From: Candidatus Rhodoblastus alkanivorans | GTDB lineage: Bacteria; Pseudomonadota; Alphaproteobacteria; Rhizobiales; Beijerinckiaceae | NCBI RefSeq assembly: GCF_022760755.1 | Contig: NZ_JAIVFP010000001.1 | Span: 1,133,501 to 1,197,500 of the forward strand | DNA length: 64,000 bases | Direction: 5' to 3' | In this document: one piece after another, positions 26,860 to 56,942 of the stretch | Layout of the letters: each line of letters begins with the position of its first letter | Position numbering within the stretch: position 1 is the stretch's first letter | The notes under the pieces: generated by a model | What the model saw: only the letters and a program-made list of their open reading frames with translations | Told to the model about the DNA's origin: nothing | The model's database searches: none | Translations under genes and position numbers: made by a program

Positions 26860-26875
26860 GACAGCTTCGCGCAAG
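26860..26875 (+). promoter_or_regulatory. flagellar regulon motif upstream of flgE
   Basis: GACAGCTTCGCGCAAG matches GNCAGYY-N4-GCAAG and ends 44 bases before flgE. One of five exact copies upstream of flagellar units. Confidence 0.6.
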
Positions 26876-26919
26876 GCAGCACGCGCATTTTTCGCTGAAC
26901 GCGATCCCGGAGAAGCACG

Positions 26920-28182
26920 ATGGGTCTTTACGACGCCATGAACGCCAGCGTGACGGGCATGTCTGCCCAGTCGAACCATCTGACCAATATCGGCCAGAAC
27001 ATTTCGAATTCCAGCACGGTGGGCTACAAGCAGGCAGACACGGAATTTTCCACCATGGTCGACCAGGCCGGCGTCGGCCAAACCGCGGCCGGCGGCGTGA
27101 TCGCCAGCACGCGCCTCGATATCGCCCAGCAGGGCACGCTGACCGGCGCCACTTCAGCGACCGATCTCGCCGTCAGCGGCAGTGGCTTTTTCGTGGTCTC
27201 CAACGCCGCGGGCCAGCAGTTCCTGACCCGCGCCGGCTCCTTTGTCGCCGACAAGGACGGCAATCTCGTCAATGCGGCGGGCTATTATCTCAATGGCTAC
27301 AGCCTCGCCAACGGAACGCCGACCATGGCGGCCAATTCGCTGTCCGGCATGCAGATCGTCAATGTCAATTCCGCCACTTTGTCGGCGACCCCGACGACGA
27401 GCGGAACCCTGACCGCCAATCTGCCCTCCGCGGATTCGACCATCGCGGCCGCCGACCTGCCCTCGGCCAACAGCTCGTCCTCGACCTATGACGAGAAGAC
27501 ATCGATGGTCATGTACGACAACCTCGGCGCCTCGCACACCATCGACGTCTATTTCGCCCAGACCGCGTCGGGAACCTGGGAAGCCTCGGCCTACGACCAT
27601 TCGGCGGCAAGCTCAACCGGAGGTTTCCCATATAGTTCCGCGGCGCTGGCGACCACGACGCTGAGCTTCGACTCGAGCAACGGCCATCTGACGTCGGGCA
27701 GCGCCAACAGTCTTTCCATTCCTGTGCCGAGCGGCGCGAACATGACGCTCGACCTTTCCGGCATGACCCAGCTCGCCGGCTCGTTCGCGGTCTCCACCGC
27801 GACGGTCAACGGCAACGCAGCCGCCTCGATAAGCTCGGTCACCATCGGCACGGACGGCGCCTTGTCGTACGACCTCACGAACGGCTCGATCGTCTCGGCT
27901 TACAAGATCCCGCTAGCGTCGGTGGCGAGCCCGGACAATCTGGAGGCGTTATCCGGCAACGTCTATTCGCCGAATATCCTTTCCGGTCAGGCTTCGGTGG
28001 GCACGGCGGGCACGGGAGGGCTGGGAACGATCCAGTCGAACGAGCTCGAGGAATCCACGGTCGATATTGCGACGGAACTGACCAACATGATCGTCGCCCA
28101 GCGCGGCTATCAGGCCAATGCGCAAATGTTCAAGACAGGCGCCGACCTGATGAACACACTGATCCAGATGAACCTGACGTAA
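26920..28182 (+). CDS. flgE: flagellar hook protein FlgE
   Basis: FlgE forms the flagellar hook, exported by the flagellar type III system. The 420-residue protein has the N-terminal rod/hook motif (MNASVTGMSAQSNHLTNIGQNISNSSTVGYKQ), a central Ser/Thr-rich variable domain and the C-terminal coiled-coil motif (ELTNMIVAQRGYQANAQMFKTGADLMNTLIQM). Length is typical for rhizobial FlgE. GGAG lies upstream of the ATG. It is first in a rightward hook and junction operon. Confidence 0.97.
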   Translation: MGLYDAMNASVTGMSAQSNHLTNIGQNISNSSTVGYKQADTEFSTMVDQAGVGQTAAGGVIASTRLDIAQQGTLTGATSATDLAVSGSGFFVVSNAAGQQFLTRAGSFVADKDGNLVNAAGYYLNGYSLANGTPTMAANSLSGMQIVNVNSATLSATPTTSGTLTANLPSADSTIAAADLPSANSSSSTYDEKTSMVMYDNLGASHTIDVYFAQTASGTWEASAYDHSAASSTGGFPYSSAALATTTLSFDSSNGHLTSGSANSLSIPVPSGANMTLDLSGMTQLAGSFAVSTATVNGNAAASISSVTIGTDGALSYDLTNGSIVSAYKIPLASVASPDNLEALSGNVYSPNILSGQASVGTAGTGGLGTIQSNELEESTVDIATELTNMIVAQRGYQANAQMFKTGADLMNTLIQMNLT

Positions 28183-28213
28183 CAAGAGATCGCCGCAAAA
28201 GAGGATCGCCAAG

Positions 28214-29698
28214 ATGGGCCTCTCGAACGCCTGGGATGTCGCCACGACCTCGCTCGCGACCAATGCGGGCCTGACCTCGATCGTCTCGCGCAACATTTCC
28301 AATGCGCAGAACACGGCCGGCTATGTCTCGACCAAGGTCGCCAATCTCGTCACCGGGTCGAATGGCGCGGCGACGATCGCTTCGATCAGCGATCTCGCCA
28401 ACGCGACCTTGTTCAACTCCATGCTTTCGAGCACATCGGCGAACGCCTCGGCCCAGGCGCTCTCCACCGGCGTGACCCAGTTGCAGCAGACGGTGAGCGA
28501 CGCGACCACGACGAGCGACTCAAGCACCGCCGCGCAATCGCCGTCCACGCTGCTGCAGTCCCTGTCCACGGCGCTGCAAACTTATTCGTCCTCGCCCGGC
28601 AGCGCCTCGGCCGCGAGCGCCGTGCTGACGGCGGCGCAGAGTCTCGCTAGCGGCCTCAATTCGGCGAGCGCGACGGTCGCGAGCGTGCGCGAGACGGCGG
28701 ACCAGGACATGGTCAATTCCGTCTCGACGGTCAATTCGCTGCTCGCCCAGTTCCAGGACGTCAACAATAGGATCGTGAAAGGGACCGCGACCGGCTCCGA
28801 CATTTCCAACGCGCTCGACCAGCGCAACACGATTTTGCAGAGCCTCTCGCAACAGATTGGCATCACGACGACAACCGGCTCGAACGGCTCGATGTCGATC
28901 TATACCGACAGCGGCGCGACATTGTTCGACGTGTCCCCGCGCAGCGTGACCATGACGCCGACGACGACTTATACCGCTTCGACGACCGGGGCGGCCGTCT
29001 ATGTGGACGGCGTTCCGGTGACGGGCGCAAACGCTGTCATGCCGATCCAGTCGGGCGCGCTCGCCGGCTATGCAAACCTGCGCGACAATGTCGCACCCCA
29101 ATATCAGGCGCAGCTCGATTCCATCGCCGGCGGCCTCGTCAACGCCTTCGCCGAGACCAATAGCTCCACCGGCGCGCAGGCTCCGGGTCTGTTCACTTAT
29201 GCGGGCGCGACCGGCGTTCCCGGCTCGTCGCGGGTTTCCGGCCTCGCCGGCGAAATCGAGGTTTCGAGCGCGGTCGATCCATCGCAGGGCGGCTCGCTCG
29301 GTCTGATCCGCGACGGTGGGATCAACGGTTTGGGCTATGTCCAGAACTCGACCGGCGCCTCGGGCTACAGCGCGGTGATTCAGGGAGACATTGCGGCGCT
29401 GAGCGCGACGACCGCTTTTCCTTCCGCCGGCGGGCTCTCGACCTCGACCAGCCTGAGCGATTACGCCGCCAATTCGGCGAGCTGGCTCGACGGCGAATAT
29501 CAAACCGCAAGCAGCCAGGCGACCTATCAGTCGACCTTGCAGACCCAGGCGTCGCAAGCACTCTCCAACGCCATTGGCGTCAATATCGACACGCAAATGT
29601 CGAAAATGCTCGATCTCGAAAACTCCTATCAGGCGTCGGCCAAATTGATTTCGACCATCAATACGATGTTCGGCGCCCTCTTGCAGGCGGTGGCGTGA
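28214..29698 (+). CDS. flgK: hook-filament junction protein FlgK
   Basis: FlgK (HAP1) is the first hook-associated protein joining hook to filament. The 494-residue protein begins MGLSNAWDVATTSL with NISNAQNTAGYVSTKVAN, and ends with IDTQMSKMLDLENSYQASAKLISTINTMFGALL, the usual axial-protein terminal helices. GAGGA lies eight bases before the ATG. It follows flgE by 31 bases and flgL starts one base after its stop. Confidence 0.95.
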   Translation: MGLSNAWDVATTSLATNAGLTSIVSRNISNAQNTAGYVSTKVANLVTGSNGAATIASISDLANATLFNSMLSSTSANASAQALSTGVTQLQQTVSDATTTSDSSTAAQSPSTLLQSLSTALQTYSSSPGSASAASAVLTAAQSLASGLNSASATVASVRETADQDMVNSVSTVNSLLAQFQDVNNRIVKGTATGSDISNALDQRNTILQSLSQQIGITTTTGSNGSMSIYTDSGATLFDVSPRSVTMTPTTTYTASTTGAAVYVDGVPVTGANAVMPIQSGALAGYANLRDNVAPQYQAQLDSIAGGLVNAFAETNSSTGAQAPGLFTYAGATGVPGSSRVSGLAGEIEVSSAVDPSQGGSLGLIRDGGINGLGYVQNSTGASGYSAVIQGDIAALSATTAFPSAGGLSTSTSLSDYAANSASWLDGEYQTASSQATYQSTLQTQASQALSNAIGVNIDTQMSKMLDLENSYQASAKLISTINTMFGALLQAVA

Positions 29699-29699
29699 C

Positions 29700-30758
29700 A
29701 TGAGTCTGAATGCGGTGTCCTCGGCGACCCTTTCCTCGATCCTCCAGAATACGGTTTCGCGCATCCAGTCGCAGTTGACGACCAGCGAGATCGAAAATTC
29801 GACCGGCAAACTTGCCGACATCGGACTGACGCTCGGCGCCGATTCCGGCCAGGATATCGCCCTGCATCAGCAGATGGCCGATTTGACGGCGATTTCGAAT
29901 TCCAACGCCGTGGTCACGGCCCAGCTTGGGGGCGCCGCGAACGCTTTGACCAGCCTGCAAAGCACGGCTTCGACCATGCTGTCCGCCTTCGTCGACGGCG
30001 CGTCGGGAACGGCGAACAGCATTGGCGCCGCCGGCTTGCAGCAGCAGGCGTCAGGCGCTTTGCAGACCTTCGCGTCGCTGATGAATTCGGACGTCGGCGG
30101 GGTTTATGTCTTTGGTGGAATCAACAGCGGCGTCGCGCCGATCGCCGCCTATTCCCAGACTCCCCCGAGCATGGCGCAAAATGCGGTGGAGACCGCGTTT
30201 CAGAATTATTTCGGCTTCGCAATCTCGTCATCGAATGTGAATTCGATCACCGGGACGCAGATGCAGACTTTTCTCACCAATCAATTCGCCGCTCTGTTCA
30301 GCGGGTCGAATTGGACGTCGGACTGGTCGTCCGCCAGCGACACGGCCGCGACCAACCGCATCGGCGCCAACCAGACCGTGACGACCTCCGTCAGCGGCAA
30401 TGATCCGGCGTTCCAGAACATGGCGGAAGCCCTGACCATGGTCAGCGCCTTCGGCGGGCTCAACCTTTCCTCCGACGCTTATTCGACCCTCATGAGCACG
30501 GCGCAATCGGTGATGAACAGCGCAAACAACGGCCTGATCTCGGCTAGCACGGCGGTCGGGACGATGGAGAACCAGGTGACCGAGGCGAACAGCGCGATCA
30601 ACCTGCAGCAAAACGTGCTGACCACGCAGATCAACGCGGCCGAGACGGTCAACGCCTATGATGTGGCGACCCAGGTGAGCAATCTCTCGACCCAATTGCA
30701 GACGGCCTATTCGCTCACGTCGCAGATCCACAAGCTGAGCCTCGTCAATTTTCTTTAG
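29700..30758 (+). CDS. flgL: hook-filament junction protein FlgL
   Basis: FlgL (HAP3) is the second junction protein, related to flagellin. The 352-residue protein has a flagellin-like N-terminal helix (SATLSSILQNTVSRIQSQLTTSEIENSTGK), the DVGGVYVFGGINSG segment typical of FlgL, and a C-terminal helix (VATQVSNLSTQLQTAYSLTSQIHKLSLVNFL). It lies between flgK and flaF as in Sinorhizobium-type clusters. Confidence 0.93.
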   Translation: MSLNAVSSATLSSILQNTVSRIQSQLTTSEIENSTGKLADIGLTLGADSGQDIALHQQMADLTAISNSNAVVTAQLGGAANALTSLQSTASTMLSAFVDGASGTANSIGAAGLQQQASGALQTFASLMNSDVGGVYVFGGINSGVAPIAAYSQTPPSMAQNAVETAFQNYFGFAISSSNVNSITGTQMQTFLTNQFAALFSGSNWTSDWSSASDTAATNRIGANQTVTTSVSGNDPAFQNMAEALTMVSAFGGLNLSSDAYSTLMSTAQSVMNSANNGLISASTAVGTMENQVTEANSAINLQQNVLTTQINAAETVNAYDVATQVSNLSTQLQTAYSLTSQIHKLSLVNFL

Positions 30759-30781
30759 CCTGAAACCTGCGAGACTGCCGA

Positions 30782-31129
30782 ATGTACCAGTTCACCTATG
30801 CAGAAGTTGTCGACGATTCGCCTCAAGACATGCGCGAGCGCGAGCGCGACGCTCTGGCGCGCTGCATCGACATGCTGGAGGCCGCGGAGAAAGCCGGGCC
30901 GCAATCCGCCGAAGCGCGCGACGCACTTACTTTTCTGCGCCGCCTGTGGTCGATCTTCATCGAGGATCTGAGCAGCGAGGGCAATGATCTGCCGAGGGAC
31001 CTCCGCGTCCAGCTCATTTCCATCGGTATCTGGACTCTGAAAGAGATCGAGCGGCTGCGCAGCGGCGCGAAGCAGAGCTTCGGCGATCTCATCGAGATCA
31101 ACGCGATCATTCGCGACGGACTGGCGTGA
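30782..31129 (+). CDS. flaF: flagellar biosynthesis regulator FlaF
   Basis: FlaF is an alphaproteobacterial flagellin secretion and regulation factor that works against FlbT. The 115-residue protein matches the family throughout, with RERERDALARCIDML at the N-terminus and LRVQLISIGIWTLKEIERL in the middle. It is soluble and alpha-helical. It sits directly before flbT, eight bases apart, as in other Rhizobiales and Caulobacter. Confidence 0.95.
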   Translation: MYQFTYAEVVDDSPQDMRERERDALARCIDMLEAAEKAGPQSAEARDALTFLRRLWSIFIEDLSSEGNDLPRDLRVQLISIGIWTLKEIERLRSGAKQSFGDLIEINAIIRDGLA

Positions 31130-31136
31130 GGCGGTC

Positions 31137-31541
31137 ATGCTGTTGAAACTGCGGGCCGGCGAGAAGCTTTACATCAACGGCGCCGTCATCAGGGTCGAGC
31201 GGAAGGCGACGATCGAATTGCTCAACGACGCGACCTTTCTGCTCGAGGCGCATGTCATCCAGCCGGATGAGGCGAGCACGCCATTGCGCCAGCTTTATTT
31301 CACGCTGCAAACGGAGCTGATGGATCGCGACGCGGCGCCAATTGCGCGAAAGATGTTCAAAACCATGCTGGCGGACACCAGCGCGGCTTTTGGCCCCGGC
31401 GCCGTGGCGGAGGGTTTGCGCGAGGCGCAGGCTTTGGCCGAATCGGGCCGCATATTCGAAGCCCTCAAGGCCATTCGGGCGCTTTATCCGCGCGAGGCCG
31501 AATTGCTCACAGGAGCGCCGCAAACAAACGCCGCCGCCTGA
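31137..31541 (+). CDS. flbT: flagellin post-transcriptional regulator FlbT
   Basis: FlbT binds the 5' leader of flagellin mRNA and limits its translation until the hook is done, in the Caulobacter model. The 134-residue protein begins LLKLRAGEKLYINGAVIRVERKATIELLNDATFLLE, characteristic of the family. The flagellin gene at 59730 has a 176-base upstream gap that could hold the target leader. It is co-oriented with and next to flaF and flgD. Confidence 0.96.
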   Translation: MLLKLRAGEKLYINGAVIRVERKATIELLNDATFLLEAHVIQPDEASTPLRQLYFTLQTELMDRDAAPIARKMFKTMLADTSAAFGPGAVAEGLREAQALAESGRIFEALKAIRALYPREAELLTGAPQTNAAA

Positions 31542-31554
31542 AAAGGATCAAACC

Positions 31555-31959
31555 ATGACCGTGTCTTCCGTCACCGCGACGACCCCGACCGCCACCATCA
31601 GCGCCAACAGCACTGCCGCGCAGGCGGCGACTATCAATTACAACGAATTCCTCCAGCTGCTCGTCACCGAATTGCAGAACCAGGATCCGACCAATCCGAT
31701 GGACCCGACGCAGCAGGTCTCGCAGCTTGCGTCCTTCTCGTCGGTCGAGCAGCAGGTGCAGACCAATTCGACGCTGACTTCACTGTTGAACAATTCCTAT
31801 ATTTCACAGGCTGAAGCCGCGATCGGAAAAACGGCGACATCGGCGGACGGCTCGGTCAGCGGGACGATTTCCTCCGTCTCGATCAGTTCCTCCGGTGCGA
31901 CAGCGACGCTGACGGACGGCAATACTTTGTCGCTCGGCACGGGCGTAACGATCTCCTGA
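31555..31959 (+). CDS. flgD: flagellar hook capping protein FlgD (short form)
   Basis: FlgD caps the growing hook. The conserved N-terminal segment YNEFLQLLVTELQNQDPTNPMDP and QLASFSSVEQQVQTNSTL are present. At 134 residues it lacks most of the C-terminal Tudor/Fn3 domains of the enteric protein; short FlgD forms are usual in rhizobia. The ATG at 31555 is preceded by AAAAGGA. The reading from 31342 overlaps flbT and is rejected as a start. Confidence 0.93.
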   Translation: MTVSSVTATTPTATISANSTAAQAATINYNEFLQLLVTELQNQDPTNPMDPTQQVSQLASFSSVEQQVQTNSTLTSLLNNSYISQAEAAIGKTATSADGSVSGTISSVSISSSGATATLTDGNTLSLGTGVTIS

Positions 31960-31992
31960 CGCCGCACTCCTCGTCCTGAAAGCAATCCCGCC

Positions 31993-32259
31993 ATGAACGA
32001 GGCTGACGCGCTCGATCTGCTTCACGCCTCGATCTGGACGATCCTTGTCGCCGCGGGTCCGGCGGTGGCCGCGGCCATGGTCGTCGGCATAGCCATCGCC
32101 TTGTTTCAGGCCCTGACCCAGATCCAGGAAGCGACCCTGACCTTCGTTCCCAAGATCATCGCCGTCCTCCTCACCCTGGCCTTGACGGGCGCCTTCATGG
32201 GCGCGCAAATTCACACTTTCGCCGAGCAGGTTTACGGGCGGGTGGAAAAAGGCTTCTGA
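31993..32259 (+). CDS. fliQ: flagellar export apparatus protein FliQ
   Basis: An 88-residue inner-membrane component of the flagellar type III export gate. It has two hydrophobic helices (about residues 14-41 and 51-75) with the family sequence GIAIALFQALTQIQEATLTFVPKIIAV between and across them. It sits between flgD and flhA, with 69 bases before flhA that hold a flagellar regulon motif. Confidence 0.96.
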   Translation: MNEADALDLLHASIWTILVAAGPAVAAAMVVGIAIALFQALTQIQEATLTFVPKIIAVLLTLALTGAFMGAQIHTFAEQVYGRVEKGF

Positions 32260-32268
32260 ACGCCGAGG

Positions 32269-32284
32269 GGCAGTCTGACGCAAG
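32269..32284 (+). promoter_or_regulatory. flagellar regulon motif upstream of flhA
   Basis: GGCAGTCTGACGCAAG matches GNCAGYY-N4-GCAAG and ends 44 bases before flhA, the same distance as at flgE. It is followed by CTTGCG, making a small local dyad. Confidence 0.58.
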
Positions 32285-32328
32285 CTTGCGCCGCCAATCT
32301 CCATCGAGACGAAACGGCGGCGCCCATC

Positions 32329-35165: not shown

Positions 35166-35563
35166 TGCGTGACAGAAAGAAGGCTCTCGAGCGGCTGCTC
35201 GCGGTGAAAACCAAGATGCGCGAATTGGAGGAGGCCCGCCTCGCCGAAATCGAACGAATGAAACGGCAGGCGCAGGAAGACCGGCGCGCGATGCTGGGCT
35301 TTCTCGATCGCGCGGAGGCCAAGGATGCGCTTCTGCTTGGGCTCGCCTGCCGGCGGGTCGCCGCCGCCGAGCGCGGCGCGGCGGCGCTCGAAGCGCAGGC
35401 CGATGCGCAACGGGAAATCGTTCTGCGCCGGACAGCGCAAAGACGCGGCGTCGAGAAATTGCTGAGAGAAGCCGGCGACGCCCTGGAACGCGAGGAGGAA
35501 AAGCGCAGGCTGCTCGAGCTCGGCGAGCGCCTCGCCAAGGCGCCGCCGACAAGCCTGCCGTAA
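35165..35563 (+). CDS. coiled-coil flagellar protein, FliJ-like
   Basis: A 132-residue soluble protein, highly charged and predicted as nearly continuous coiled coil ([26 protein letters not shown] onward). Size, charge and position resemble FliJ, the stalk of the FliHIJ export ATPase, but similarity cannot be confirmed by eye. The ATG at 35165 shares its A with the fliR stop. Alternative: an unnamed rhizobial flagellar protein found after fliR. Confidence 0.6.
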   Translation: MRDRKKALERLLAVKTKMRELEEARLAEIERMKRQAQEDRRAMLGFLDRAEAKDALLLGLACRRVAAAERGAAALEAQADAQREIVLRRTAQRRGVEKLLREAGDALEREEEKRRLLELGERLAKAPPTSLP

Positions 35564-35602
35564 GCCAGGTCGAGTAGCTTTCCCAGGCTATGGGAGCCGC
35601 AT

Positions 35603-36064: not shown

Positions 36065-36083
36065 AGCGCCCGAGGCGAGGCCC

Positions 36084-36458: not shown

Positions 36459-36475
36459 ATCGGGGCGAAGAAGCG

Positions 36476-37038: not shown

Positions 37039-39153
37039 ATGGGACTGAATCCCTTGAGGAAGGCGCGCGCGAACGTTACGGACGGCGCGGGCGTTTATGA
37101 GGCGCTGAGCGCGGCGATCGCGCCGCGGATCGAGGAAATCTTCGACGCCTTCTACGCCGAATTCGCGGCTGATCCGGACAAGTCCGCGCTGCTGCGCGAT
37201 CCCCAGACGGCGCGGCGGGCGCGGGACGCCAATCTCGAACACTGGAAATATCTGCTGGCCAATCCGCCCGGCGCGGAGCTGAAGAAAAGGGCGCGGCGGA
37301 TCGGCGAAACCCATGTGCGGTTGAAGCTTTCTCCGGAAATCTATCTCGGCGCCTATGGCTATTTCTTCAAGCGCTTCCTGCGCGTGATTCTCGCCCGGCG
37401 CGGCCGCGAGGCCGAGATTGTCGAGGCCCTGACCGAATCGGTGTTCACGGACATGGGCGCCAATCTGAACGCCTTTTTCGCAGGCACGGAAAGGGCGGCG
37501 CGCGAACTCGAAGCGCTCGATCTGAAAAACGCGATCGAGGCGGAAATGGAGTCCTCGAACGAGGTCGCCGCCCGCCAGTCCGAGTCCTTGCGGGCGATCG
37601 TGAACGATCTCGAAAAATTGCTGACCGAATTGCGCGGCGGCGTTTCGCTGGTCAAGGACGGCGTCGAAACCACCTCCCAATCCATGGGGGCGGTCGCGGC
37701 GGCGGTCGAGGAATTGCAGGCGTCGAGCCAGGAGGTCGGGCGCCAGGCCAATGAGACGGATACTCTGGTGAACGACGCCGTCGGACGTGCGGATGAAGCG
37801 GAGCGGCGCTTCGCGGCTTTGTCGGCTTCCGCCGCGCGGGTGGCCGAGATCGTGGGGTTGATCGCCGGCGTCTCCAACCAGACCAGCCTGCTCGCGCTCA
37901 ATGCGACGATCGAGGCGGCGCGCGCCGGGGAGAACGGCCGCGGATTCGCCGTGGTCGCCAATGAGGTGAAGCTCCTGTCCCAGCGCACCAACGCCGCGAC
38001 GCGGGAAATTTCCGGCCAGATCGCAGAAATCGAAGCCGCGATGAAATCGGCGGTCGGCGCGATGAAGGACATGCGGGAACTGATCAGCCAGATCAGCCTG
38101 ATCGCCTCCGCCGTAGCCCATAGTTCGGGCCAGCAGGTCGAGGCGGTCGGGCAGATCGGACATAGCGCTCATGCGGCGGCGGCAGGCGCGGCGCAACTTG
38201 GCGGCAGCGTCGAAATGTTCACCGGCGCCGTGGGCGAGGTCGATATTGCGGCGGCGAAGGTTTCCGATCAGTCGCGCCAGGTCGGCACCCTGTTCGAGCG
38301 CCTTTCGACCCGTCTGGTCGTCGTGGTGAAAAGCTTCGCCGATGTGGATGGCCGCAAATATCCGCGCTCACCCGCGCTCGTACCCGTGGAGCTTGTCCGG
38401 AACGGGCGGCGCATGGCCGGAGAAATCGTGGAAATATCCGTGGGCGGGGCGACTGTCTCGGGCCTTCCCGATCTCTTGGAGCCCGGGCTGATCGTAGAGG
38501 CCGAACTGAAGGCCGTCGGCCCGTTGCGCGCGCGTGTCGCGCCGCCGTCGGACCACGGCCAGAGGCTCCAGTTCGTGGAAATCCCGGACCAGACCTCGGC
38601 AGCGCTGAAGGCGTTGATGGAGCGGCTCTTGGCGAAGGAGGAAAAGTTGCGCGAAATCGTGGTCGCGCGGTCGAAAATGGTCGCGGAGCTGTTCGAGCGC
38701 GCCGTCGCCAATGGCGAGATCACGGAAGCGGCCTTGTTCGACGCAAATTACGTTCCGATCCCGGACACCAATCCACGGCAATACCGCAATCAGACGCTGG
38801 AGTTTCTCGAACGCCATTTGCCGGAAATTCAGGAGCCGATCCTCGAACTCGATCCGGCAGTGGTGTTTTCGGCCGCCGTCGATCGCAACGGCTACCTGCC
38901 GGTGCACAACAGGAAATATTCCGCGCCACAGGGCCCGGACCCAGTGTGGAACAACGCCAATTCGCGCAACCGCCGGATATTCGACGACATGACCGGAATG
39001 ACGGCGGCGCGCAACACCAGTCCCGTGCTGAGCCAGACCTATCCGCGTGATCTCGGCGGCGGCCGCGTCGCTCTGATCAAGGACATTTCCGCGCCGATCT
39101 ATGTCAATCGCAAGCATTGGGGCGGGTTGCGGATGGGCGCGAAGATCGCCTGA
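37039..39153 (+). CDS. soluble globin-coupled chemoreceptor with PilZ and C-terminal sensory domain
   Basis: A 704-residue protein with no membrane segments. Residues 1-160 are a protoglobin-type sensor with the probable proximal heme ligand H92 ([23 protein letters not shown]). Residues 200-430 are the methyl-accepting signalling domain with the tip [33 protein letters not shown]. Residues 438-530 look like a PilZ domain: RKYPR gives RxxxR, but the second motif reads EISVGG instead of D/NxSxxG. Residues 540-704 form a further domain ([33 protein letters not shown]) known from other chemoreceptor C-termini. It probably senses oxygen or redox and reports to the CheA at 48943. Confidence 0.9.
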
Positions 39154-44248: not shown

Positions 44249-44294
44249 GGCCGCGCTCCGCTTGGTTGGACCGCGCCCATTAGGCTCATTCGGG

Positions 44295-44308
44295 CTTGCG
44301 CGAGGCTT
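44295..44308 (-). promoter_or_regulatory. near-match to flagellar regulon motif upstream of motA
   Basis: On the minus strand AAGCCTCGCGCAAG matches CAGYY-N4-GCAAG except for the first base, and ends 46 bases before the motA TTG. Weaker than the five exact copies. Confidence 0.42.
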
Positions 44309-44422
44309 AAACCGCGGAAGCAGGATCTGCGAAAAACGCTCGCCGGCCTTCAGACGAAAATCCAGCCAAAACAAGAGAAACCCAGCGGGACTTCATCGGC
44401 GGGCCGGCGACGTCCCTGGCAG

Positions 44423-44438
44423 GTCAGCCTGGAGCAAG
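44423..44438 (+). promoter_or_regulatory. flagellar regulon motif upstream of flgF
   Basis: GTCAGCCTGGAGCAAG matches GNCAGYY-N4-GCAAG and ends 58 bases before flgF. It shares CAGCCTGG with the flgB copy. Confidence 0.6.
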
Positions 44439-44496
44439 CGCCCTTGGGTGTGATGTGGCCGGCTGCGCGGCTGGCGCGCAGGTCACGGACGCCCCG

Positions 44497-45222
44497 ATGC
44501 AATCGAGTATCTATGTCGCGCTCTCGGGTCAGGTCGCCTTGCAGAAGCGGCTCGACACGATCGCCAACAACATCGCCAACATGAATACGGCCGGCTATCG
44601 CGCCGAGGAGGTGACCTTTTCCACCGTGCTCTCGCGCGCGGGGGCGGAGCCCACCGCTTTCGCGACGAGCGGCGAGAGCTATATTTCGCGCCAGGGCGGG
44701 GAGCTGATTTCGACAGGCAATCCGCTCGACATCGCGGTGCAGGGCGAGGGATGGTTCGCGCTGCGGACGCCGGACGGCGTCGTCTATACCCGCGACGGCC
44801 GCCTGCACATGGACGAAGGCGGGACGTTGCGCAGCGTCGACAATTATCCGATTCTCGACGCCGGCGGCGCCTCCATCATGCTCGATCCATCGGGCGGGGC
44901 GCCGACAATTTCCCAGGACGGGATGATCAGCCAGAACGGCGCCCAGATTGGCGCCGTGGGCCTGTTCTCCATCGATCCCGCGGCGCGGCTGAGTCGCTAC
45001 GAGAATTCTTCCGTCAGGCCTGACATTCCCGCGACGCCGGTGCTGGATTTCACCAACAATGGCGTGGCCCAGGGCATGACCGAAGGCTCGAATGTCAATC
45101 CGGTGCTGGAAATGACCCGGATGATCGACGTTTCTCGGGCCTTCGACAGTTCGGCCAATGCGACCCAATCGACCGAAAATTCGTTCCTCGACGCCATCAA
45201 AACGCTTGGGGCGACCTCGTGA
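44497..45222 (+). CDS. flgF: proximal rod protein FlgF
   Basis: FlgF is a rod component of the basal body. The 241-residue protein begins MQSSIYVALSGQVALQKRLDTIANNIANMNTAGYRAEEV, the family N-terminus, and ends with MTRMIDVSRAFDSSANATQSTENSFLDAIKTLG. The ATG at 44497 is chosen over the longer reading from 44455. It is divergent from motA and followed 15 bases later by fliI. Confidence 0.94.
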   Translation: MQSSIYVALSGQVALQKRLDTIANNIANMNTAGYRAEEVTFSTVLSRAGAEPTAFATSGESYISRQGGELISTGNPLDIAVQGEGWFALRTPDGVVYTRDGRLHMDEGGTLRSVDNYPILDAGGASIMLDPSGGAPTISQDGMISQNGAQIGAVGLFSIDPAARLSRYENSSVRPDIPATPVLDFTNNGVAQGMTEGSNVNPVLEMTRMIDVSRAFDSSANATQSTENSFLDAIKTLGATS

Positions 45223-47093: not shown

Positions 47094-47099
47094 CGCCCC

Positions 47100-48347: not shown

Positions 48348-48396
48348 GTTGTAACCATTTTTTATCGTGTTGCGCGCAATAACCATAAAACACAAC
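48348..48396. promoter_or_regulatory. imperfect dyad in the cheB-che intergenic region
   Basis: TTGCGCGCAA (48370-48379, a perfect palindrome) is flanked by TTTTAT (48360-48365) and ATAAAA (48385-48390), with GTTGT and ACAAC outside. It lies 20 bases before the rightward che start in an AT-rich stretch. It may be an operator, but this is weak. Confidence 0.3.
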
Positions 48397-48416
48397 TAAA
48401 ACGGGTAGTTCGAACG

Positions 48417-48950: not shown

Positions 48951-51549
48951 AATGTTGAAGGAATTCCTCGCCGAATCCGCCGAGCAGATCGAGGCGGCGT
49001 CGGCGCAGATCGTGGCCTTCGAGCGTCATCCCGAGGATGCGGGCCTGATCGCCAGCATTTTCCGCCTCGTCCATACCATCAAGGGCACCTGCGGCTTCCT
49101 TGGCCTGAACCGGCTCCAGCGGCTCACCCACGCGGCGGAAAACCTGATCGGGGCTTTGCGCGAGGGCGCCGACGCGACTCCCGAGGTCGTTTCAGCTGTT
49201 CTCGCGGCGGTCGATCGCGTCAAGGCGCTGCTCGCCGAGCTGGAGGAAAAGGGCTGCGAAGGCGAGGGTGACGATTCCGACATGATCGCTCTGCTCGAGG
49301 AGCGGGTGGTCGAGTGCCGCGGCGCCGCTGTCGAGGAGGAAGCCCCGGCGGCGGCGCCCATTTCCGAACCGGAGCCCGAACCCGAGCGCGTCGTAGCAGC
49401 GGCGCCGGTCGCGCCGGAGGCTGAAACGCGGCAAACGCCCGCGGCGATCGGATCCGTCAAAAACGCTCACGCCGGCGCCCCGGCCGCCGAGACGGCGCCC
49501 GGCAAGCGCGCCGAGACGATCCGCATCAATCTGAACACGCTCGAGCGCATCATGCAGCTCGTCTCGGAACTGGTTCTGACCCGGAACCAGCTCCTCGAGA
49601 TCACGCGCCACCATGCGGACGAGACGCTCAAGTCGCCGTTGCAGCGTCTCTCGGCCATGACGTCCGACCTGCAGGACGCCGTGATGCGCGCCCGCATGCA
49701 GCCGGTCGAGCGTGTTTTCACCAATCTGCCGCGCATGATCCGCGATCTCGCGACCGATCTGGACAAGAAGATCAATCTGGTCACCGACGGCGGCGACACC
49801 GAACTCGACCGCCAGCTCATCGAGCTGATCCGCGATCCGCTCACCCATCTCGTGCGCAATTGCGCCGACCACGGCATCGAACCGCCGGAAGAGCGCGTCC
49901 GCCTCGGCAAGCCGGCGGCGGGAACGGTGCGTGTCGCGGCTTCGCACGAGGCCGGCCAGATTACGATCGAGATCAGCGACGACGGGCGCGGGCTCAACAA
50001 GGAGCGGATCAAGGAGAAGGCGCTCGCGCGGGGTCTGGCGACGACCCAGCAGCTCGAACGGATGGGCGACGACGAGATCCATCGCTTCATCTTCTCGCCG
50101 GGCTTCTCCACCGCCGAGCGCGTGACCAATGTTTCCGGCCGCGGCGTCGGCATGGACGTCGTCCGCGAGAACATTCAGGCGATCGGCGGCTCGGTGGCTC
50201 TGTCCTCGACGCCGGGGCGGGGCTCCTGTTTCGCGCTCAAAATTCCGCTGACGCTCGCCATCGCCCCGGCCCTTATCGTCGAGGCCAGCGGTCAAAGATT
50301 CGCCTTGCCGCAGCATTCGGTGGTCGAGGCCGTCGGCGTCAACGGCGGCGAGCATCGCATCGAATTCGTCCAGGGTTCGAAAATCCTGCAATTGCGCGAG
50401 GCGGTCCTTCCCATCGGCAGCCTTGCGGAACTGCTCGATCTCGCCCCGCTGGACGAGCCCGGGGCTGATCCGGAGCAGCTTGCCGTCATCATGCGCGTCG
50501 GCGCCCAGTCCTTCGGGATTACGGTTGATGCGGTCACCGACGTCCAGGAAATCGTGGTGAAGCCGATGGGCGGCTCGCTGCAGCATCTCGCCGCCTTTTC
50601 CGGCCACACCATTCTCGGCGACGGTTCGGTCGTGCTCATTCTCGACCCCAACGGCCTGCGCGAGGCTTTGGGGCTGGAGCAGTCGCGCGAGGCGGCCACG
50701 ATCGACGCGGAAAACGTCCGCGCGGCCAGCGCCGACAAGATGCGCCTCATCTATTTTCGGGCGGGCGCGGGCGTTGACAAGGTTCTGCCTCTTTCCAACG
50801 TGGCGCGGATCGAGACCGTCTCGTCGGAAAACATCGAGCTTTCGAACGGGATGATGCTCACGCATCACCAGGGCCGCCTGATGCAGATCGTCGCCGCCGC
50901 CCCCGACGTGATGGTCAAGGAGGGTGACAATACGGTCTTCGTCATTTCGCCGGACGGCGAGCCCTTCGGGCTTTTGGTCGACGGCATTCTCGATATCGTG
51001 GACGAGAAACTCGATGTCGAAATCGCCGGAGAGGCGCCGGGGATCGTCGGCGCCGCCAATTTCGGCGGCAAGGTCGTCGAACTGCTCGACATCGCTTATT
51101 TCATCGACATGCTGCGGACGCCGGGCGAAGGCGAGGTCAAGGGCAAGACCCGCTTGCTGCTGGTGGACGACGCCGCGTTTTTCCGCGACATGCTTTCGGC
51201 CACGCTGCAGGCTTCGGGCTTTGAGGTGGTCAAGGCGGAGACCGGCGCGCAAGCCGTTTCGCGCATCGCGCAGAATGCGCGCTTCGACGCTATTCTCATC
51301 GACGTTGATCTGCCCGACGGCGCTGGCTTCGAACTCGGAAGGCGCCTCCGCGACGCCGGGGCGCGCGCGCCGATGATCGCGCTCGCGCCTTTCGCCAGCC
51401 GCGAGATAATGCGCGCCGCGGAAGCGGCCGGCATGATGGCGGCCGTCGGAAAATTCCAGCGCAACCAGCTTCTCGACATCATCCGCGCCTGCGTCGCCGA
51501 CGACGGCGTCGGGGAGAGCGCCGCTTTCGCCGCAGGAGTCGCCGCATGA
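48943..51549 (+). CDS. cheA: hybrid chemotaxis histidine kinase CheA with two CheW-like domains and a receiver
   Basis: CheA autophosphorylates and passes phosphate to CheY and CheB. The 868-residue protein has an HPt domain with H44 (LVHTIKGTCGF), an Ala/Pro/Glu-rich linker with no clear P2 domain, a dimerisation helix pair (ERIMQLVSELVLTRNQLLEI) and a GHKL ATPase (HLVRNCADHGIEPPEER, DDGRGLN, GRGVGMDVV). One CheW-like domain follows (about 440-580), then a second, weaker one (about 600-730). A C-terminal receiver domain ends it (RLLLVDDAAFFRDML, Asp in AILIDVDLP). The start MDEMLKEF at 48943 is preferred to 48925. Confidence 0.95.
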   Translation: MDEMLKEFLAESAEQIEAASAQIVAFERHPEDAGLIASIFRLVHTIKGTCGFLGLNRLQRLTHAAENLIGALREGADATPEVVSAVLAAVDRVKALLAELEEKGCEGEGDDSDMIALLEERVVECRGAAVEEEAPAAAPISEPEPEPERVVAAAPVAPEAETRQTPAAIGSVKNAHAGAPAAETAPGKRAETIRINLNTLERIMQLVSELVLTRNQLLEITRHHADETLKSPLQRLSAMTSDLQDAVMRARMQPVERVFTNLPRMIRDLATDLDKKINLVTDGGDTELDRQLIELIRDPLTHLVRNCADHGIEPPEERVRLGKPAAGTVRVAASHEAGQITIEISDDGRGLNKERIKEKALARGLATTQQLERMGDDEIHRFIFSPGFSTAERVTNVSGRGVGMDVVRENIQAIGGSVALSSTPGRGSCFALKIPLTLAIAPALIVEASGQRFALPQHSVVEAVGVNGGEHRIEFVQGSKILQLREAVLPIGSLAELLDLAPLDEPGADPEQLAVIMRVGAQSFGITVDAVTDVQEIVVKPMGGSLQHLAAFSGHTILGDGSVVLILDPNGLREALGLEQSREAATIDAENVRAASADKMRLIYFRAGAGVDKVLPLSNVARIETVSSENIELSNGMMLTHHQGRLMQIVAAAPDVMVKEGDNTVFVISPDGEPFGLLVDGILDIVDEKLDVEIAGEAPGIVGAANFGGKVVELLDIAYFIDMLRTPGEGEVKGKTRLLLVDDAAFFRDMLSATLQASGFEVVKAETGAQAVSRIAQNARFDAILIDVDLPDGAGFELGRRLRDAGARAPMIALAPFASREIMRAAEAAGMMAAVGKFQRNQLLDIIRACVADDGVGESAAFAAGVAA

Positions 51550-52031
51550 GCTTCGAACCTTCCCGAACGTTGAGCGAAACGCCGCAGGCCGCGGCCAATG
51601 CGCTCGACGGCTATTTCTCGATCAAGGTCGCCGACGACGTTTTCGGCCTGTCGGTGACGCGCGTTCAGACGATCTTCCGGATCGGCTCGGTCACCCGGGC
51701 GCCCGGGGGCCCGCGCGACATTGTCGGCCTCGTCAATCTGCGCGGCAAGATCGTGACGGCGGTGAGCCTGCGCCGCCGTCTCGGCCTCAGGCCGGAGGAT
51801 GGCGGCGCGGGCAGCCTGGCGATCGGCATCGAGCATGGTGGCGAGGCCTTCGCCCTGCTCGTCGACGAGATCGGCGACGTGTTGAGCCTCGCCCCCGACA
51901 CGGCGATCGCGCCGCCGCCGCATATAGCGCGCGGCCGGGCGAAATTCGCCGCCGCCTATCATCGGATCGCAGGCCGGATCATGCCTTTGCTCAATATCGA
52001 CGCGGTCTTCGACTTCAGCGAGGACAGCTGA
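51546..52031 (+). CDS. cheW: chemotaxis adaptor CheW
   Basis: A 161-residue adaptor linking receptors to CheA. It shows the CheW domain (YFSIKVADDVFGLSVTRVQTIFRIGSVTRAPGGPRDIVGLVNLRGKIVTAVSLRRRLGL) and the ending GRIMPLLNIDAVFDF. The start overlaps the cheA stop by four bases, so the two are coupled. No second stand-alone cheW is in the window, though cheA itself has two CheW-like domains. Confidence 0.96.
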   Translation: MSFEPSRTLSETPQAAANALDGYFSIKVADDVFGLSVTRVQTIFRIGSVTRAPGGPRDIVGLVNLRGKIVTAVSLRRRLGLRPEDGGAGSLAIGIEHGGEAFALLVDEIGDVLSLAPDTAIAPPPHIARGRAKFAAAYHRIAGRIMPLLNIDAVFDFSEDS

Positions 52032-52076
52032 TCCATCACGCATCGGGCGCAAAGAAATCACGAATGGAGACTGACA

Positions 52077-52442
<366 letters not shown>

Positions 52443-52490
52443 CGGGCGCGGATTTGTCTATATCGCTTTGCGTAATTCGGGTGTCGCGTC

Positions 52491-53330
52491 ATGTCTCAGG
52501 CTTTCCTGGCCTTGCAGAGCTTTTTGCTGAAATCGTCCGGACTGGCGCTCGACCGCGAGAAGCAATATCTCGTCGAGGCGCGGCTCAATCCGGTGATCGA
52601 TCAGGCGGGGCTGAACGGTCTGGCGGAACTCGTCGCGCGCATTGAGAAGGACCGCGCGCTCGCGAAGAAGGTGACGGAGGCGATGACCGTCAACGAAACC
52701 TTCTTCTTCCGCGATCGCGCGCCTTTCGAGGGGTTTCGCAACGCCATTCTGCCGGAATTGCTGAAGGCGCGGGCGCGGACGCGCCGCATCCGGCTGTGGT
52801 CGGCGGCCTGCTCGACCGGGCAGGAGCCCTATTCGCTGGCCATGATCCTCGACGAGGAAGCGCGCAAGCTCGGAGGCTGGAGCGTCGATATCGTCGCGAC
52901 CGATATAGCCGACTCCGTGCTGAAGCGCGCGCGGGAGGGCGTCTACAGCCATTTCGAGGCCCAGCGCGGCGTGCCAATGTCGCATCTCGTGCGTTATTTC
53001 ACCAAGCGCAAGGATCAATGGGCTATCAACCAGAGCATCAAGGCGCGGATCGATTTCCGCCAGCAGAATCTGATGAGCGACTTCTCGCCTCTCGGCGTGT
53101 TCGACGTGATCCTCTGCCGCAACGTGCTGATCTATTTCGCGCCGGAACAGAAACGCGACGTGCTGGCGCGCATGGCGCGCGCGCTCGCGCCCGACGGCTA
53201 TCTCGTGCTTGGCGCGGCGGAAAGCGTGATCGGCTATTCGAGCGAATTCAAGCCCCATGGCGAGAATCGCGTGATCCTCACCCGGCGTATGCTTGGCGAG
53301 GCGCAGGCGAAAAAGGGATTGGCCTTCTGA
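52491..53330 (+). CDS. cheR: chemotaxis methyltransferase CheR
   Basis: CheR methylates chemoreceptors using SAM. The 279-residue protein has the N-terminal helical domain (TEAMTVNETFFFRDRAPFEGF, ending in the FFR motif) and the SAM-binding fold (IRLWSAACSTGQEPYSLAM, VATDIADSVLKRA, DVILCRNVLIYF). It lies 48 bases after cheY and ends the che run. There are 92 bases before flgB, which hold a flagellar regulon motif. Confidence 0.97.
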   Translation: MSQAFLALQSFLLKSSGLALDREKQYLVEARLNPVIDQAGLNGLAELVARIEKDRALAKKVTEAMTVNETFFFRDRAPFEGFRNAILPELLKARARTRRIRLWSAACSTGQEPYSLAMILDEEARKLGGWSVDIVATDIADSVLKRAREGVYSHFEAQRGVPMSHLVRYFTKRKDQWAINQSIKARIDFRQQNLMSDFSPLGVFDVILCRNVLIYFAPEQKRDVLARMARALAPDGYLVLGAAESVIGYSSEFKPHGENRVILTRRMLGEAQAKKGLAF

Positions 53331-53334
53331 GGGG

Positions 53335-53350
53335 GCCAGCCTGGGGCAAG
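53335..53350 (+). promoter_or_regulatory. flagellar regulon motif upstream of flgB
   Basis: GCCAGCCTGGGGCAAG matches GNCAGYY-N4-GCAAG and ends 72 bases before flgB, just after cheR. It marks flgB as the start of a separate flagellar unit. Confidence 0.6.
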
Positions 53351-53422
53351 ATTGACTTCCTAATCTCGCGCTGAAGACCTTTCGCGCCCAGCGGCGTGAA
53401 GGAAACTTGGCGGAGATTCTCC

Positions 53423-53803
53423 ATGCAGACGCTGGCGCTGTTCTCGCTCGCGACGCAGCAGGCGAACTGGCTCGACGCCCGGCAGGCGACGATCGCCTCG
53501 AATGTCGCCAATGCCAACACGCCGGATTATGAGGCGCGCGATCTCGCGCCTTTCGCCGCCGTGCTCTCCCATATGCAATTGTCCATGGCCGCGACGGAGC
53601 CGGGTCATATTCAACCTGTCGCCGACGCCGGCCAGCGCGTGAAGGTCAAGCGCGACGACGCCTGGGACGTGGTCTATTCCGGCAATTCGGTCAATCTCGA
53701 ACAGGAAATGATGAAGGCCGGCGAGGTCAGCCGCGCCCATTCGCTCAATGTCAACATCATCCGCTCCTTCCAGCAGATGCTGATGAACGCCGTGAAGGTC
53801 TGA
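53423..53803 (+). CDS. flgB: proximal rod protein FlgB
   Basis: FlgB is the first rod protein. The 126-residue protein reads MQTLALFSLATQQANWLDARQATIASNVANANTPDYEARDLAPF and ends MMKAGEVSRAHSLNVNIIRSFQQMLMNAVKV, matching the family. GGAG lies seven bases before the ATG at 53423; the reading from 53396 starts at GTG and adds nothing conserved. It starts the flgB-flgC-fliE-flgG-flgA-flgI run. Confidence 0.95.
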   Translation: MQTLALFSLATQQANWLDARQATIASNVANANTPDYEARDLAPFAAVLSHMQLSMAATEPGHIQPVADAGQRVKVKRDDAWDVVYSGNSVNLEQEMMKAGEVSRAHSLNVNIIRSFQQMLMNAVKV

Positions 53804-53806
53804 ATC

Positions 53807-54226
53807 ATGTCGATCGATCCGCTTGCCTCCTCGCTTCACATTGCCGGCTCCGGCCTTGAAACGCAATCGGCGCGCCTGCGCGTCGTGGCGGAAAATATCG
53901 CCAATGCCCGATCGACCGGATCTTTCGCCGGCGCCGATCCTTACGCGCGCAAGACGATCACTTTCGAGGACGAACTCGACCGCGCCGGCGGCGATACGCT
54001 CGTCGCAGTGAAAACCATCGGCGTGGACAAGACGCCCTTCCGCATCGAGCACATGCCGGGCAATCCAGCCGCCGACGCCGAGGGCGACGTGAAAATGCCC
54101 AATGTCGATCTCCTGTTCGAAATGGCCGACATGCGCGAGGCCAACCGCTCCTATGAGGCCAATCTCCAGGTGGTGAAACAGACGCGCCAGATGATTTCCG
54201 ACACGATCGACCTGATGAGGAGCTGA
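53807..54226 (+). CDS. flgC: proximal rod protein FlgC
   Basis: A 139-residue rod protein with the axial N-terminal motif ([28 protein letters not shown]) and the FlgC ending ([38 protein letters not shown]). The central segment has [19 protein letters not shown], typical of FlgC. It lies three bases after flgB and one base before fliE. Confidence 0.96.
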
Positions 54227-54227
54227 C

Positions 54228-54536
54228 ATGATCGCCGCCATTCTTCCCCTCGCCGCCGGCGCCGTTCAGACGGCGGCCTCCGTCGCTCCGGCGGCCGTCG
54301 CCTCCGTCGCGAGCGCCGGATCGGACTTCGGCGCCGCGCTGGCGCAGGCCGCCGACAATGCGCTGCACACGCTCAAGACCGCCGAGACGACCTCGATCAA
54401 GGGCATCGAGGGCAAGGCGAGCGTGCAGCAGGTCGTGGACTCGATGATGTCCGCGGAGAGGACGCTGCAGACGACGCTGGCGATCCGCGACAAGACGGTC
54501 GCCGCGTTTCAACAGATCAGCCAGATGCAGATTTGA
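54228..54536 (+). CDS. fliE: MS-ring/rod junction protein FliE
   Basis: A 102-residue protein that joins the MS ring to the rod. The N-terminal half is Ala-rich; the conserved C-terminal half (FGAALAQAADNALHTLKTAETTSIKGIEGKASVQQVVDSMMSAERTLQTTLAIRDKTVAAFQQISQMQI) is that of FliE. Order flgB-flgC-fliE-flgG is the standard rhizobial one. Confidence 0.94.
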   Translation: MIAAILPLAAGAVQTAASVAPAAVASVASAGSDFGAALAQAADNALHTLKTAETTSIKGIEGKASVQQVVDSMMSAERTLQTTLAIRDKTVAAFQQISQMQI

Positions 54537-54552
54537 GTAAAGGAGTGAGTCG

Positions 54553-55344
54553 ATGAGAGCGCTCGCCATCGCCGCGACGGGCATGAACGCCCAGACCAAG
54601 AATCTCGAAGTGATCGCCAATAACATTGCCAATATCAACACAACGGCGTTCAAGCGTTCGCGCGCGGAATTCACCGATCTGATCTATCAGGCCGAGCGTC
54701 TGCAGGGCGTCTCGACGCGCGGGCAGAATGCGGTGGTTCCCGAGGGTGCGCAGATCGGCCTCGGCGTGCGCACCGCCGCCATCCGCCCGCTGAATATTCA
54801 GGGCTCTCTGACCAATACCGGCAATCAGCTCGATCTCGCCATCAACGGCCGCGGCTGGTTCCAGGTGACGACGAGCACCGGCGAAATTCTCTATACCCGC
54901 GCCGGCTCCTTCAGCACCAACGCCAACGGCCAGATCGTCACCAGCGACGGCTATCAGATTCAGCCTGCGATCGTCGTTCCCAACAATACGACGGCGATCA
55001 CGATCAGCCAGACCGGCGTCGTCGACGCGACCATCGGCGGCCAGACCATTCCGCAGCAGATCGGCCAGCTGACCATCGCCAATTTCGTCAACGAGGCCGG
55101 GCTGATGGCGATGGGCGGCAATCTGTTCGAGCCGACGGCGGCCTCGGGGCAGGCGGTGGTCGGCGTGCCGGGCGACCCTGGTTTCGGCTCGATCAACCAG
55201 GGCTATCTCGAAGCCTCCAATGTCGATCCGGTGTCGGAAATCTCCAACATGATCGCGGCGCAGCGCGCCTATGAGATGAATTCGAAAGTGGTCGAGGCGG
55301 CAAGCTCCATGGCCGGCACGATCTCGAACCTGAGGGTGTCATGA
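54553..55344 (+). CDS. flgG: distal rod protein FlgG
   Basis: A 263-residue rod protein. It begins [46 protein letters not shown], has the [15 protein letters not shown] and [14 protein letters not shown] segments, and ends [39 protein letters not shown] precedes the ATG. The stop overlaps flgA by four bases. Confidence 0.97.
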
Positions 55345-55793
55345 CCGCGGGCCGCCGGCTCCTTTTCGCCGTCGCCGCCGTCCTCGTCGCCGGCGCGGCG
55401 CAGGCCGGTCAGCGCGCGCTGCCGGTTCCGGCGCGGGTGATCTATCCCGGGGACCGGATCACCGGCGCTATGCTGGTCGATTCCAGGGATTTTTCCGCCG
55501 AGCCGGGGGATGTGGTCTGGGACCGCGCCGATCTCGTCGGCAAGGTCGCGCGGCGCACCCTGCTGCCGGGCCGGCCGATCGCGGCGATTGCGGTGGGGGC
55601 GCCGCGCGCCGTGTCCATGGGGGCCCTGGTCTCCGTCTACTACCAGCAGGACGGCATCGACATCGCCACGACCGCCCAGGCCCTGCAGAACGGCTATGTC
55701 GGCCAGGTCGTGCAGGCGCGCAATCTCGACAGCGGCGTGGTGATCTCCGGCGTCGTTCAGGCGGATGGTTCGATCCGTGTCCGGGGCGGTTGA
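55341..55793 (+). CDS. flgA: P-ring assembly chaperone FlgA
   Basis: A 150-residue periplasmic chaperone for FlgI assembly. It has a Sec signal peptide ([18 protein letters not shown]) and a SAF-like domain ([65 protein letters not shown]). It is shorter than the enteric protein, as usual for rhizobia. It overlaps flgG by four bases; flgI follows one base later. Confidence 0.92.
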
Positions 55794-55794
55794 A

Positions 55795-56901
55795 ATGCGC
55801 TTTTTCCGAGCCTGCGCGCTCGCGGTTATGGCCGTGTTCGCCTTTGCTCATGCCGAGGCGGCGGTACGGATTAAGGACATCACCTCCGTCAAGGGCGTCC
55901 GCGACAACCAGCTCGTCGGCTATGGTCTCGTCGTCGGCCTTCAGGGCACCGGCGATTCCCTGCAGAACGCGCCATTCACCGGGCAGTCCCTCCAAGCGAT
56001 GCTGGACCGCATGGGCGTGAATGTGCGCAACGTCAATCTGCGGACGAGAAATGTCGCCGCGGTGATGGTCACCGCGGATCTGCCGCCTTTCGCCGCGCGG
56101 GGGACGCACATCGACGTTACCGTCTCATCGATGGGCGACGCGAGCTCGCTGATGGGCGGGACTTTGTTGCTGACGACGATGAGCGGCGCGAACGGTCAAG
56201 TTTACGCGGTCGCGCAAGGCGCGGTGTCGGTCACTGGCTTTGCGACTCAGGGCCAGGCTGAAACGCTGACTCAGGGCGTGCCGACGGCGGGCCATATTTC
56301 CAACGGCGCGACGGTGGAGCGGGAGATCGCCAGCCGCATGCCATCGGACGGCGCGCTGAATCTGGAATTGAACAATCCCGATTTCGCCACCGCCGTGCGA
56401 ATCGCCGATGCGATCAACAGATATTCCTGGGCGGGTTATCACCGGCGCACGGCCCTCGAACAAAGTCCCAATTCCGTAGCGCTCCATCGTCCGCCCGGCG
56501 TCGGCGCGACCCATTTCATCGCCGAAATCGGCGAGCTTATGGTCGAGCCTGACGCACCGGCGCGGGTGGTGATCGATTCGCGCACGGGAACTGTCGTGAT
56601 CGGGCTGGACGTTCAAATTTCTCCGGTTGCCGTGACGCAGGGCACGCTCACCGTGCGGGTGACCGAGACGCCGCAGGTCTCGCAGCCGGCGCCTTTCTCG
56701 CACGGCCGCACCGTGGTTACGCCCCAGACTCAGATTCAGGCGGACGAAGGCGGCGGTTGGGTCGCGGTGATCGGCGGCCGAAGTCTGAGGGGATTGGTGC
56801 ATGGCCTGAATCGTATCGGCGCCAAGCCGCCGACGATCATCGCGATCCTGCAGGCGATCAAGGCGGCGGGCGCGCTCCAGGCCGATATCGTGGTGCAATA
56901 G
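55795..56901 (+). CDS. flgI: flagellar P-ring protein FlgI
   Basis: FlgI forms the P ring in the peptidoglycan layer. The 368-residue protein has a signal peptide (ACALAVMAVFAFAHAEA), the conserved RIKDITSVKGVRDNQLVGYGLVVGLQGTGDSL, and SSMGDASSLMGGTLLLT. The ATG at 55795 is chosen because the reading from 55765 overlaps flgA. The C-terminus (PPTIIAILQAIKAAGALQADIVVQ) is typical. Confidence 0.97.
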   Translation: MRFFRACALAVMAVFAFAHAEAAVRIKDITSVKGVRDNQLVGYGLVVGLQGTGDSLQNAPFTGQSLQAMLDRMGVNVRNVNLRTRNVAAVMVTADLPPFAARGTHIDVTVSSMGDASSLMGGTLLLTTMSGANGQVYAVAQGAVSVTGFATQGQAETLTQGVPTAGHISNGATVEREIASRMPSDGALNLELNNPDFATAVRIADAINRYSWAGYHRRTALEQSPNSVALHRPPGVGATHFIAEIGELMVEPDAPARVVIDSRTGTVVIGLDVQISPVAVTQGTLTVRVTETPQVSQPAPFSHGRTVVTPQTQIQADEGGGWVAVIGGRSLRGLVHGLNRIGAKPPTIIAILQAIKAAGALQADIVVQ

Positions 56902-56926
56902 GCGCGAGGCCGGCAGGCGCCTGAGC

Positions 56927-56942
56927 GTCAGCCCAACGCAAG
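56927..56942 (+). promoter_or_regulatory. flagellar regulon motif upstream of motE
   Basis: GTCAGCCCAACGCAAG matches GNCAGYY-N4-GCAAG and ends 30 bases before motE. Like the flhA copy it is followed by CTTGC, giving a short dyad. Confidence 0.55.

Follow-up and report, generated by a model that had tools for sequence, protein, structure and literature searches.

A short DNA element shared by the flagellar transcription units is found in a 64-kb stretch of the genome of Candidatus Rhodoblastus alkanivorans (hereafter, the window). The sequence comparisons presented here indicate that this element probably serves the class II flagellar regulon as operator and promoter in one and is the predicted target of the Rem/FtcR/LafR activator. 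A first-pass annotation of the window had proposed a core promoter or a site for an activator resembling Rem or FtcR; this proposal is supported by a Rem orthologue in the same genome, by a motif that tracks Rem-type flagella, and by a -10 box at a fixed distance.

The pattern GNCAGYYN4GCAAG has 5 exact matches in the window, all on the forward strand (26860, 32269, 44423, 53335, and 56927). As had been annotated, they lie in the gaps before flgE, flhA, flgF, flgB, and motE, each aimed at its gene, and the matrix scan recovered the near copy before motA on the reverse strand (Table 1). The names flgE, flhA, flgF, flgB, and motA are backed by Pfam, and that of motE by a sub-threshold MgtE_N match only. 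The distances claimed between box and start codon were also reproduced: 44 nucleotides (nt) for flgE and flhA, 30 nt for motE, 72 nt for flgB with the ATG at 53423, and 58 nt for flgF with the ATG at 44497. Because the pattern was built from those same five sites, the original estimate of chance was replaced by independent tests. The claim of a count far above chance held against shuffled windows, which gave a mean of 0.08 matches, with none of 100 shuffles reaching 5. Over the whole genome, the bare 16-mer matched 16 times and its reversed control 17 times, and the bare 16-mer was therefore rejected as a genome-wide marker. All 6 matches in the flagellar cluster (those in the window and one at G000:C1:1209120) are non-coding, with a coding-like start at most 150 nt downstream. 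Elsewhere in the genome, 9 of 10 matches lie within coding-like open reading frames (ORFs), and 0 of 8 forward matches outside the cluster precede a coding-like start; this start test covers the forward matches, the 2 reverse ones (L005, L015) being in coding-like ORFs with their own direction excluded. The bare 16-mer is unspecific genome-wide, and its promoter placement is specific. Equally good matches in coding regions, named by the annotation as a contrary sign, thus exist for the 16-mer and not for its placement. The near-equal genome counts are what chance similarity in short GC-rich gaps would give, but this explanation is contradicted by the placement and, as detailed below, by rediscovery of the motif in other genera, the fixed -10 box, and conservation in congeners. 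Together with the split among flhA promoters by flagellar type, these results led to its rejection, and we regard it as negligible.

The wider motif was obtained from 42 regions upstream of flgE and flhA in genera other than Rhodoblastus. De novo discovery returned cCAgCYTCGCGCAAGCtT with a log-likelihood of 355, compared to at most 89 in 5 shuffles that were given fewer restarts, and 35 of the 42 upstreams score above 8. Some genera in the discovery set belong to the same broad family, and near-duplicates are present (two Microvirga and two Bradyrhizobium). It omits Rhodoblastus loci, duplicates, short upstreams, and loci matched on the minus strand, among them flgE loci L021, L023, L027, L029, L030, and L032, and the distant-relative rows for flgF, flgB, and motE were not used. 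Among the omitted flgE loci, GCAAG occurs in L023, L027, and L029, and is absent from L021 and L030. When the upstreams were aligned on the box, with offsets counted from the first G of GCAAG, T or C was found at offset 15 in 33 of 35, A at offset 16 in 27 of 35, and T at offset 20 in 27 of 35. The second fixed element of the resulting arrangement, GCAAG-N10-YAnnnT, reads as a -10 box. Nine sites of the present genome, none of them in the training set, all point towards their genes; the last T of the -10 is present in 9/9 (2e-7 from base frequencies) and the A in 6/9 (0.0016 from base frequencies). Since the spacing to the -10 box is fixed, the box is taken to belong to the promoter, where it would span about -37 to -20, in the place of a -35, with starts predicted ~27 nt beyond the G that opens GCAAG. 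The core of the annotated pattern was confirmed, its leading G proved to be only local, and the wider form is cCAgCYTCGCGCAAGCtT-N7-YAnnnT.

Fixed -10 spacing and uniform orientation would also be seen if box and -10 formed a core promoter with an unusual -35 region, read by a sigma factor with no activator bound. The conserved stretch of ~17 base pairs (bp), however, exceeds a -35 hexamer, and the box goes with rem and Rem-type flagella (the sigma factors of these genomes being outside the comparison), and such a promoter is considered unlikely. The sigma-54 promoter, with its consensus TGGCAC-N5-TTGC, was rejected, as this sequence is absent from the alignment consensus. The CtrA site, given as TAA-N7-TTAAC in the accessible part of PMC3616915, is likewise absent from it, and an RNA-leader element is not favoured because transcription is predicted to start downstream of the box.

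Within this genome, the outside matrix found 15 sites of at least 12 bits in 114 kb. Eight of these are promoter sites, belonging to flgE (22.4 bits, the best in the 114 kb), motA on the reverse strand, a TPR glycosyltransferase gene, fliF, a DUF1217 gene, motE, flhA, and flgB; the fliF site (L183:901) and the DUF1217 site (L183:11621) are both past the window. The other seven look like chance. A 32-position model that includes the -10 gave 13 matches at E values up to 10 over the whole genome, having scored 150 of 2465 first-look candidates, and 6 of the 13 fall in the 49-kb flagellar region (flgE, DUF1217, flhA, motA, fliF, and flgB). The seven elsewhere include three within coding-like ORFs and one in the gap between convergent genes; two more precede genes, one a phosphorylase gene and the other, at ~280 nt, a helicase gene. 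At the reported thresholds of matrix and genome model, no oriented site was found before flagellin (59730), cheA, or the chemoreceptor gene, in line with the annotated lack of copies before the che genes.

Conservation within the genus was followed in 11 genomes, of which 7 carry flhA, this one included, leaving six flagellated congeners. By FlhA, the closest named relative is Rhodoblastus acidophilus DSM 142 (85%), and one metagenome-assembled genome reaches 90%. The exact pattern is present in 6/6 congeners before flgE (one taken from the adjoining stretch L137) and in 6/6 before flgB. At flhA it is exact in 3 of the 6 and has one mismatch in the remaining 3, and at flgF it is exact in 1, has one mismatch in 4, and is absent in 1. 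The comparison holds 3 rows for motE, with 1 exact, and no rows for motA, whose listed ORF begins upstream of the likely start; one-mismatch boxes occur at the apparent motE of three more genomes.

The Rem/FtcR/LafR orthologue of this genome is encoded at G000:C1:1206752-1207414, ~9.2 kb past the window, with its gene placed at G000:C1:1206740-1207420 and at L183:9240-9923 (73240-73923 in window coordinates), and shows 65% identity to Rem of L067. An orthologue exists in 6 of the 7 flhA-positive genomes of the genus, the present one among them; the 4 genomes lacking flhA have none. Across 297 genomes of the order, CAGCYTCRCGCAAG was found in 57 of 83 with rem compared to 70 of 214 without it (Fisher p 2.5e-8, a value that takes no account of the relatedness and differing sizes of the genomes), and the reversed pattern in 14/83 and 23/214 (p 0.17). 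When each locus was left out in turn for scoring, 19 of the 24 flhA promoters of Rem type reached 8 bits, compared to 0 of 50 other alphaproteobacterial ones, the highest of which scores 7.8. Rem-type here means an FlhA identity of at least 60%; 2 of the 24 are Rhodoblastus, and for 10 of them the fetched sequence includes a rem gene. Bradyrhizobium contains both situations: the box is at flhA in 3/3 loci with a rem gene (L071, L072, L076), and the five loci with the other type of flagella (L107, L108, L114, L118, L119) are outside the best 15 of 50, i.e. at or below -3.2. Of 29 rem loci, 14 contain a site of at least 15 bits in the fetched stretch, compared to a mean of 0.56 and a maximum of 3 under permutation. 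In 352 kb from 16 Rem-type loci, a set omitting L059, L063, L066, L069, L070, L078, L081, and the Rhodoblastus loci, 12 further sites of at least 15 were found where 0.8 were expected, with the -10 T in 8 of 12; 55 other loci (1108 kb) gave 7 where 4.0 were expected.

Co-occurrence of this kind cannot separate regulators of identical distribution, and rem was the only regulator searched for; another regulator travelling with Rem-type flagella could bind the box instead. Against this, direct activation of class II genes by Rem is reported in the available part of PMC9812332, and rem is often beside flgE, which makes a second regulator distinctly improbable. The sites of the present genome also match the class II genes of the Rem cascade, as given in the accessible parts of PMC8429497 and PMC9812332, and the systems of Sinorhizobium, Agrobacterium, Brucella, and Bradyrhizobium share both the orthologous regulator and this target list with the present one. 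The position of the gene differs. In those systems rem usually stands before flgE, as it does in Mesorhizobium or Aminobacter, whereas here a divergent GGDEF gene (25813-26808) occupies that place (the rem-neighbourhood survey disregards rows L194, L208, and L218).

Several observations weigh against Rem as the regulator behind the box. The chromatin immunoprecipitation sequencing motif of Brucella melitensis FtcR, TGTGGGCA in the accessible part of PMC9456535, comes from the same regulator family and bears no resemblance to the box. At loci L026 and L028, two of the discovery upstreams that do not score above 8, rem immediately precedes flgE and yet no box is present there; the box is not universal at flgE of rem-bearing loci. 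In genome G045, flhA and boxes are present and no Rem orthologue was found. The strict 14-mer is missing from 26 of the 83 rem-positive genomes and present in 70 of the 214 without rem, and a strong site is missing within the fetched 1.5 kb of 15 of the 29 rem loci. Permuted matrices gave a mean of 2.2 sites of at least 12 bits, but up to 14 compared to the 15 observed, and among the 13 best genome matches flgE alone has an E value below 0.1. The association of the motif with Rem is strong but incomplete.

The mechanism that best joins these results is as follows. Rem, a protein of the OmpR/PhoB type, would bind the 18-bp box CCAGCYTCGCGCAAGCTT at about -37 to -20, replacing the -35, and would recruit the housekeeping sigma-70 RNA polymerase to the YAnnnT -10 located 10 nt after GCAAG, so that transcription would begin ~27 nt downstream of the first base of GCAAG. 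We infer Rem binding, its geometry, and the start positions from sequence. In this way Rem may turn on the hook, rod, export, and motor operons (flgE, flhA, flgF, flgB, motE, motA-fliM, and fliF), as well as the DUF1217 gene and, here, probably the TPR glycosyltransferase gene. Flagellin and the che genes, without a box, would stay outside this Rem regulon. In the receiver-like domain of Rem, Glu stands where a paralogue has the phosphate-accepting Asp, and the Rem proteins of relatives carry Ser, Arg, or Glu there, in agreement with the description of Rem as aspartate-less in the available parts of PMC9812332 and PMC12632262. For B. diazoefficiens, the accessible part of PMC8429497 reports that control by LafR is confined to the lateral flagella and that the protein works without phosphorylation.

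Among operators of the PhoB/OmpR type, the PHO box offers the closest comparison. It sits next to the -10, and the present element shares its length of ~18 bp and a location replacing the -35, and may share its 11-nt period. The accessible part of PMC4415409 describes the PHO box as 11-nt direct repeats; here, AGCYT-N6-AGCTT would have that period, a direct lag of 11 giving p 0.0124 (0.064 corrected). The two differ in sequence, an imperfect palindrome fits the present box equally well (inverted p 0.0032, corrected 0.088), and the receiver here is without the phosphate-accepting Asp. The best reading is that the box would work like a PHO box; that it is built like one is not claimed. The regulator class is already known, and an operator of this form apparently has no published account: none was found for Rem/FtcR/LafR in the accessible open-licence literature, an earlier description elsewhere being possible, and two papers on rhizobial transcription starts have neither GCAAG nor 'flagell' in their main text (PMC3616915, PMC4842269).

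Table 1. Candidate Rem boxes in the window, with the hexamers at the -10 position.
Candidate box	Position	Strand	Details
flgE operon	26861..26878	+	-10 CATTTT 26886-26891; predicted start ~26898
flhA operon	32270..32287	+	-10 CAATCT 32295-32300; predicted start ~32307
153-165 amino acid gene of unknown function downstream of fliR (weaker candidate)	35550..35567	+	10.1 bits; -10 TAGCTT 35575-35580
motA-fliM	44292..44309	-	19.3 bits; hexamer CCTAAT at -10 position 44279-44284
flgF	44424..44441	+	10.5 bits; weak hexamer TGTGAT 44449-44454
flgB operon	53336..53353	+	-10 TAATCT 53361-53366; predicted start ~53373
motE operon	56928..56945	+	hexamer GAAAGT 56953-56958
before/near start of TPR glycosyltransferase-41 gene	60743..60760	+	18.8 bits; hexamer TGCAAT 60768-60773

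Other features accompany these sites. Boxes resembling the weaker candidate downstream of fliR occur at a matching distance after flhA in L138, L061, and L062. The TPR/glycosyltransferase-41 protein (60702-63275, assigned by Pfam) directly follows the flagellin gene (59730-60665), and after the DUF1217 gene comes another TPR ORF, this one glycosyltransferase-9-like (L183:12591-14198); a role of these genes in flagellin glycosylation is possible. Boxes like that of the TPR glycosyltransferase gene are present in L144, L147, and L150, judged by position, with gene orthology assumed neither way. The chemoreceptor gene (37039-39153) encodes protoglobin, signalling, and PilZ domains, and its upstreams in congeners L136 and L142 contain GCAAG words and no clear box. 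The sequence GTTAAC at 26835-26840, immediately ahead of the flgE box, is possibly a CtrA half-site, and several congeners (L138, L143, L146) likewise have GTTAAC or TTAA a short way ahead of their flhA or flgE box. Hairpin-like words resembling the box (GCTTCGCGCAAGCGAAGC) are located at G000:C1:188028 (L224) and 2596940 (L229). The former, between convergent genes, may be a terminator; the latter precedes the phosphorylase gene.

On a broader scale, we tentatively suggest, at a little short of an even chance, that the element is the hitherto undefined operator of Rem/FtcR/LafR across much of the Hyphomicrobiales, and that a phosphorylation-free activator replaces the -35 at all early flagellar promoters. 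If so, early flagellar output would be set by the amount of Rem and the strength of the box, and lineage-specific genes, such as that of the putative flagellin glycosyltransferase, would enter the regulon by gaining a box. The published FtcR motif, derived from chromatin immunoprecipitation, would be called into question, as it would not be the flagellar operator. For the flagellar master activator of rhizobia and their relatives, the action sites and transcription starts would be predicted at base level across an order, and the early flagellar regulon would be readable from sequence in uncultured genomes. The system would also provide a model, open to testing, of promoter activation by a response regulator that lacks the phosphate-accepting residue.

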